NCBI RefSeq assembly: GCF_007197555.1
Contig: NZ_CP041614.1
Location: 1,666,001 to 1,730,000 of the forward strand
Origin: Shewanella psychropiezotolerans
GTDB taxonomy: Bacteria > Pseudomonadota > Gammaproteobacteria > Enterobacterales > Shewanellaceae
Length of the DNA: 64,000 bases
Direction of reading: 5' to 3'
Part shown: positions 58,113-60,056 of the stretch, piece by piece
Position numbering within the stretch: position 1 is the stretch's first letter
Layout of the letters: the number at the start of each line of letters is the position of its first letter
Made by a program: the position numbers and the translations under genes
The notes under the pieces: generated by a model
Seen by the model: only the letters and a program-made list of their open reading frames with translations
Told to the model about the DNA's origin: nothing
The model's database searches: none

Positions 58113-58475
58113 ATGGCTGAATCTCTGTTCGATAAATATGGAGGGTTCGACACATTTACTCTGGTCGTGAGTCGTTTTTATCAAAAGGTGCTAGATAGCG
58201 ATGAGCTGGAGCATTATTTTAGAAACGTTAATATGGATAATCTGATGGCTCACCAAACTAATTTCATAGCAAAAGCGCTAGGTGGCCCCGATGCTTATGA
58301 AGGCCGCGATCTTCGTCAGGCCCATATCAACCTTGATATTACATTGCCTCATTTTTTGGAAGTTGCTGAACTGCTCCAAGAGTCACTTGAAGAGGCTGGC
58401 GTCGAAGGTGATGATGTCGAGTCTATTATTCAGATAGTAGGCAGCTTACAAGATCAGATTGTAATGCAAACATAG
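58113..58475 (+). CDS. Group I truncated haemoglobin
   Basis: The 120-residue protein is a 2-over-2 globin of the trHbN type, which binds haem and handles oxygen or nitric oxide in the cytoplasm. It shows LFDKYGGFDTFTLVVSRFYQKV, the B/E-helix region with LMAHQTNFIAKALGG, and LRQAHINL with the expected proximal histidine. An AAGGAC ribosome site precedes the ATG. It lies 28 bases before the histidine kinase gene, so the two may share a transcript; a sensory link is possible but unproven. Confidence 0.92.
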   Translation: MAESLFDKYGGFDTFTLVVSRFYQKVLDSDELEHYFRNVNMDNLMAHQTNFIAKALGGPDAYEGRDLRQAHINLDITLPHFLEVAELLQESLEEAGVEGDDVESIIQIVGSLQDQIVMQT

Positions 58476-58503
58476 ATAATCGCACTGAACTTAGGATGAG
58501 TAT

Positions 58504-59703
58504 ATGCGGCCATTAACGTTTGAGCTATTTGACCTTATGGATCATGGCGTCGGCTTGTGTTCTGTGGGAACTCTAGAGGTTTTGGAGGCCAATTCAGCTC
58601 TGATTGCTTGGTTAGAGTTAGGGCCGAACCAAAACTATTTAAGTGATCACATTAACGCTGAGGATATAGTTCGCATTAAGCGTTCGATTGAAAAAAAACG
58701 AAAATATCGCTTTTTCCAAGCGTATTCAATTCATTCTCGTGAGGATACAATAGAATTTATTTGCAGTACCATTTCTCTATTAGATAACCAAGAGTTCTTG
58801 CTTATTCAAGCTTCAGTCAATAATTCTGATAAGCATTTGAAGGCATTAGTTAAAAATCATGCCATTTTATTAGAGAAAAATAACCAGTTACTCTTAGAGG
58901 AAAAGTTAAAGGCGGAAGCGGCAAATAGCGCTAAAGATCAGTTTCTTGCTGCAATGAGCCATGAATTAAGGACCCCGTTGAACGGCATATTAGGTATGGT
59001 GCAGCAACTAGGTAGATCATGCTTAACAAGTTCTCAGAGTCATTATTTGGAGACTATAAACTGTTCAGGACAGCAATTATTGGCAGTGATCAATCAGGTG
59101 CTGGATTATTCAAAAATAGAATCGTCGGAGTTAGTTTTACATCCGGTAGTCACTGATCTGGCATCTATCATGACTCAAGTGTCGAAAATTTGTGGTGATC
59201 AGCTTTTATCTGATCATAATGTCGAGTTCCATACCCAAATGAGTCCTGATATCCCTTTGGTCATGGTCGATGATATTAGGTTAAAGCAGGTCTTAATTAA
59301 CTTAGTTAACAATGCCCTCAAATTTACGCATCAGGGACAGGTTAATTTCATCTTGGAGCTTAGATCAAGGATAAGTAAATCTTGTGAGCTGACATTTAAA
59401 GTGGCTGATACAGGTATCGGTATTTCCGAGGAGAGAATTGAGCATATTTTTGATCCATTTATTCAGCATTCATTTTCTACAACCCGAGAGTATGGTGGAA
59501 CAGGCCTTGGTTTATCGATTTGTAAACACTTGGTAGAAAAAATGGGGGGGACTATTAATGTAACAAGTCTCCCCAATGCAGGCAGTCAGTTTATTATCAA
59601 TTTATCTTTGGATATAAGCCATGACATTGTCGTTGGCAAGGGACACTGTGTAGAAGAAACGCGCAGCCATGATGCTTCTATCATCAAGGGAAAAGTATTC
59701 TGA
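58504..59703 (+). CDS. Histidine kinase, N-terminal part of a frameshifted hybrid kinase
   Basis: The 399-residue product has a PAS-like N-terminus (about 1-105), a coiled coil (about 110-145), HisKA with the phospho-accepting His153 in [14 protein letters not shown], and a HATPase domain ([33 protein letters not shown]). No membrane segment is seen, so it is probably cytoplasmic. The frame ends at 59701, exactly where a receiver domain should begin. The next frame (-1) continues with the missing start of the receiver. The stop follows the heptamer G-GGA-AAA at 59688-59694, in the phase used for -1 slippage. It is either a broken hybrid kinase gene or one expressed by frameshifting. Confidence 0.9.
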
Positions 59704-59705
59704 TC

Positions 59706-60056
59706 GTGGATGATATAGCGCTAAATAGGGAAATAATCAGAATGCCTCTTGAGGAGTTAGATACTCAATTATACCTCGCCGAAAATGGGGCTCAAGCGGT
59801 AGAACTTTTCAAAATGCACGACATTGATTTGATTTTGATGGACTGTCTTATGCCTGTCATGGATGGTTTTGACGCGACAAAAGCAATACGTAAAATGGAA
59901 GTTAATGGCAATCGGGTGCCTATCTTTGCTGTGACGGCGAGTGTCTCTGAGGAGGTAACTCAGACATGTAAGTTAGCAGGTATGGATGAGGTGATGCTTA
60001 AACCCTTCGACTTTGAGCAACTTATCAAAAAAATCTGCTTTAGATTAATGAACTGA
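59706..60056 (+). CDS. Receiver domain, C-terminal part of the frameshifted hybrid kinase
   Basis: The frame encodes a receiver with the acidic pair DD at its start, the phospho-accepting aspartate in LILMDCLMPVMDG (residue 46 from the GTG at 59706), the switch threonine in VFAVTAS-type sequence (IFAVTAS) and the lysine in MLKPFD. Read upstream in the same frame, the bases before 59706 encode SILIV, which completes the first beta-strand. Starting at the GTG would remove that strand, and no ribosome site is visible. The receiver is therefore more likely made as a fusion to the kinase by a -1 shift, or is not made at all. Confidence 0.85.
   Translation: MDDIALNREIIRMPLEELDTQLYLAENGAQAVELFKMHDIDLILMDCLMPVMDGFDATKAIRKMEVNGNRVPIFAVTASVSEEVTQTCKLAGMDEVMLKPFDFEQLIKKICFRLMN

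Follow-up and report, generated by a model that had tools for sequence, protein, structure and literature searches.

The locus examined here, within a window of 64,000 nucleotides of Shewanella psychropiezotolerans DNA, very probably holds an ordinary hybrid histidine kinase gene whose reading frame has been broken by the loss of one base, with no programmed frameshifting involved (Table 1). This confidence is a joint one, the larger share of it going to an error of sequencing or assembly and the smaller to a recent real deletion. According to the proposed course of events, a gene coding for a kinase with an attached receiver, 517 aa long in the relatives, would have come to lack one base at the joint of its two parts through an indel error of sequencing or assembly, as one of many such losses in the sequence.

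Table 1. Features at the kinase-receiver joint and in its surroundings (positions within the window).
Feature	Position	Strand	Remark
Group 1 truncated hemoglobin (HbN-like)	58113..58475	+	Bac_globin PF01152, E 1.5e-20
Histidine kinase part of the hybrid kinase gene	58504..59703	+	399-aa ORF; stops at the frame break
Receiver (REC) part, -1 frame	59673..60056	+	open from the stop at 59670
GGGAAAA heptamer, phase G_GGA_AAA	59688..59694	+	spells the codons of a conserved Gly-Lys
10-bp stem, 5' arm	59695..59704	+
10-bp stem, 3' arm	59736..59745	+

Pfam searches place a HisKA domain at residues 143-207 and a HATPase_c domain at residues 256-369 of the kinase ORF, and the translated -1 frame (59691-60053) matches Response_reg (PF00072) at residues 3-115 with an E-value of 2e-25, covering nearly the whole model. 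HisKA, HATPase_c and receiver domains thus follow each other in the usual order when the two halves are scanned apart, and the ORFs and domain matches agree with the original prediction that the kinase frame ends at the TGA at 59701-59703 and that the receiver continues in the -1 frame. A hybrid histidine kinase would be expected to occupy one open frame, as it does in all three relatives described below; here the TGA interrupts it. The N-terminal segment of about 140 residues is without any Pfam match in the relatives, and in the NCBIfam comparison of the window halves none of the best 25 of 83 and the best 25 of 89 models reached its curated cut-off.

Orthologs were sought in 129 genomes of the genus, including that of the window itself; each row shown rests on 14 scored candidates, and an E-value of at most 1e-80 was taken to define an ortholog. 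Three of the 128 other genomes possess one: G009, very probably Shewanella psychrophila, MTB7 (G119) and G077, with 88, 80 and 71% identity, respectively, to the kinase part. All three genes run unbroken through kinase and receiver (520 aa between stop codons and 517 aa when counted from the start), and the receiver part of the window is 95% identical to residues 395-517 of the single-frame protein of the closest relative. In a four-way alignment the window is one base short of every relative immediately after the Gly-Lys codons, whereas a pairwise alignment with G009 puts the gap some bases earlier, ahead of GGG, so that its exact place depends on the alignment. These comparisons spoke against the programmed frameshifting that had been suggested for the junction, as they returned three uninterrupted frames out of three, each longer than the window's by a base at the joint, and bore out the alternative that had been offered along with it, namely that a base is missing. 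The more specific version of that alternative, the loss of one A from a run of five, held for the base loss but is not clearly supported as to the run: five consecutive A residues at the joint are not common to the three relatives.

From 7999 candidates scored in a large protein search, 2410 proteins were found at E-values of at most 1e-40, the best 120 of which are listed. The six nearest listed proteins after the window's own (P0002-P0007, 56-89% identity) have 515-517 aa and contain HisKA, HATPase_c and receiver domains, which in P0002-P0005 follow the order seen in the window. Two of the six, P0003 and P0004, very probably represent the G009 and G119 genes a second time. Among the 53 listed proteins P0002-P0054, the receiver model is present in 50 and absent from P0044, P0049 and P0054. 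When 394 genomes sampled from the order were searched with 4 candidates scored per row, only the window's genome and G077 gave matches at E-values of at most 1e-75, and in the best 80 of 121 loci from a scan of genome contigs the kinases had at most 54% identity in their best segment. The closest counterparts, those of S. psychrophila (P0003, 517 aa) and MTB7, have HisKA, HATPase_c and Response_reg in the same order as the window and are likewise preceded by a truncated hemoglobin gene, and they differ from the window copy in being a single frame where that copy is one base short.

The signals that had drawn attention to the junction are nevertheless there as described. The heptamer is found exactly at the predicted position and phase, the kinase frame reading AAG GGA AAA across it, and directly behind it the predicted stem forms with 10 of 10 pairs, one of them G-U, around a 31-nt loop; the spacer, which had been called short, measures zero. 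Folded alone, the stem reaches -10.5 kcal/mol (z -2.24), with 4 of 200 shuffled sequences equally good, whereas two wider stretches around it do not outdo their shuffled versions (z -0.48 and +0.31). The 400 codons of the kinase ORF contain four in-phase X_XXY_YYZ heptamers, the junction one included, so about 0.1 would be expected by chance in an overlap zone of about 10 codons, and we regard the presence of one at the break as a mild coincidence. GGGAAAA also occurs in phase in G119 and is lacking in G009 and G077, while the stem pairs at 10 of 10 positions in G009, 8 of 10 in G119 and 9 of 10 in G077, the lost pairs being uncompensated. Since the intact gene of G119 has the heptamer and the intact gene of G009 the full stem, neither element tracks the split of the frame in this set of sequences.

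It is against this background that a programmed -1 frameshift at G_GGA_AAA, with the stem as stimulator and with kinase alone and kinase-receiver as the two products, has to be weighed. Programmed -1 sites are known from dnaX, copA and IS3-type transposases, and their stimulatory structure sits about 5-9 nt past the heptamer. The window resembles these sites in having an in-phase X_XXY_YYZ heptamer at the frame junction, followed by a stem, and heptamer, phase and stem can all be counted in favor of the programmed reading. Unlike at the known sites, the joint is without a spacer and has a long loop, the stem abutting the heptamer; also in contrast to them, the relatives do not share split, heptamer and stem as a set, none of the three having split frames. 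Among the papers listed for programmed frameshifting with histidine kinases, none had a title or abstract opening that concerned a kinase-receiver frameshift. As the three relatives are unbroken and heptamer and stem are not tied to the split, programmed frameshifting was rejected and is considered extremely improbable. Least credible of all is a truly split gene with a receiver started separately, at ATT 59697 or CTG 59700 after the AAGG at 59686-59689, or re-initiated at GTG 59706. All three codons are in frame, and the AAGG lies 7 or 10 nt upstream of ATT and CTG, respectively. However, ATG, GTG and TTG are all absent from the receiver frame upstream of GTG 59706, and a start at this GTG would lose the first strand, in agreement with the earlier statement that the receiver has no usable start that keeps it; together with the unsplit orthologs (0 of 3 split), this led us to judge a separate start unlikely. 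There is also a very small chance that the base was truly lost and that the heptamer, present by accident, lets some ribosomes slip and partly rescues the broken hybrid kinase, in which case the ratio of kinase to kinase-receiver would be a new, strain-specific trait.

Whether the lost base is an isolated event was addressed by comparing 624 kb of the window's genome (G000:C1:1206001-1830000, window included) with 600 kb of G009, its closest relative. A gene was taken as comparable when its ORF had at least 150 aa and its best piece at least 75% identity, with 90% covered. Among the 306 comparable ORFs of G009 (395 in total), 20 are frameshifted in G000 and 5 have an in-frame stop; conversely, among the 299 comparable ORFs of G000 (413 in total), 5 are frameshifted in G009, two of them at one place, and 4 have an in-frame stop. 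The frameshift counts, 20/306 versus 5/299, differ with a Fisher p of 0.0034. A smaller earlier comparison had given 9/108 frameshifted genes in G000 versus 2/101 in G009; a cruder first count, in which stops had been pooled with frameshifts, showed a smaller imbalance (12/112 versus 8/106) and is superseded by these figures. As G119, fetched over 240 kb to assign the breaks to branches, was comparable at one of 168 ORFs (the kinase; 75% identity, 90% coverage), the polarity of the breaks rests on which genome keeps the long unbroken frame.

The 20 frameshifted genes contain 23 junctions, 22 of which belong to the -1 (or +2) class. At the DNA level, 15 junctions show a lone one-base deletion, one a lone one-base insertion and one a lone five-base insertion, and the remaining six have several gaps each, two with a net change of -1. 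Lone-gap junctions lie beside a run of at least three identical bases in 12 of 17 cases, compared with 20% of random positions, and beside a run of at least four in 6 of 17 cases, compared with 6.8%. In a loose test covering about 10 codons around each break, an in-phase heptamer was found at 5 of the 23 junctions, the kinase-receiver one included; a heptamer near a break is thus not rare where runs are involved. A listing over about 169 kb contains 48 gaps of one or two bases, a good many of which compensate each other in pairs, and does not enter these counts. Elsewhere in the window, at about 23536 (G000 1689536), a further one-base difference from the closest relative lies within a frame that is open for 288 aa there and not in the window.

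One-base losses beside runs, with no matching rise in in-frame stops, resemble the indel errors of long reads. Because the surplus in G000 is of this type while in-frame stops are level, and because genuine decay should raise both, an error is favored, and since the loss at the kinase-receiver joint stands among many others of a single base in the sequence, it too is probably an indel error of sequencing or assembly and less likely a recent real mutation. The latter, which would leave either a young pseudogene or a gene making only a receiver-less kinase, is a possibility to be taken seriously, though we think it the less likely origin. Some real decay exists, as gaps larger than one base in some of the flagged genes and the in-frame stops in five show. 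PMC10059138 (section 3.2) gives coding densities of 77.28% for the matching S. psychropiezotolerans strain, YLB-06, 84.86% for MTB7, 79.61% for S. violacea DSS12 and 78.57% for S. benthica DB21MT-2; the YLB-06 value is low beside that of MTB7, which would be in line with a real deletion, but the other two deep-sea relatives are low as well, so a low value is not peculiar to YLB-06. Searches for the strain and passages of PMC10059138 and PMC9229058 yielded no sequencing platform for it. A real deletion also has to contend with the fact that frameshifts are about fourfold those of the relative and stops are not (20 and 5 versus 5 and 4), the surplus consisting mainly of one-base losses by runs, as in long-read errors.

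Substitutions were counted with G119 as outgroup and the joint codon skipped. Over the 397 kinase codons, synonymous and non-synonymous changes number 21 and 18 on the window branch and 34 and 21 on the G009 branch; over the 119 receiver codons they number 8 and 2 on the window branch and 14 and 1 on the G009 branch. Ambiguous sites number 20 in the kinase and 7 in the receiver, and all of these are small, raw counts. The receiver part still looks constrained, so the break is young or not real. The picture is less clear over the final 120 codons ahead of the joint, where the window branch is rather rich in non-synonymous changes (8 synonymous, 11 non-synonymous) compared with the G009 branch (11 and 5); this excess could hint at relaxed constraint and thereby at real decay.

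The gene upstream bears on what the hybrid kinase might do. Its product has group 1 truncated hemoglobins as its best solved relatives, it ends 28 bases before the kinase, and the pair (58113-59703) is kept in all three relatives, including G119, where the wider neighborhood differs. The two may form a heme-based signaling pair in which a heme protein feeds a kinase. When the main text of PMC11904497, which deals with HbN of Shewanella benthica, was searched for 'histidine kinase' and 'operon', neither term turned up.

With the lost base as the preferred explanation, a false lead is removed, as heptamer, phase and stem can co-occur where a frame is broken although no programmed shift takes place. 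For the genome as a whole, many one-base losses seem to be present, and its other split genes merit a check against relatives first.
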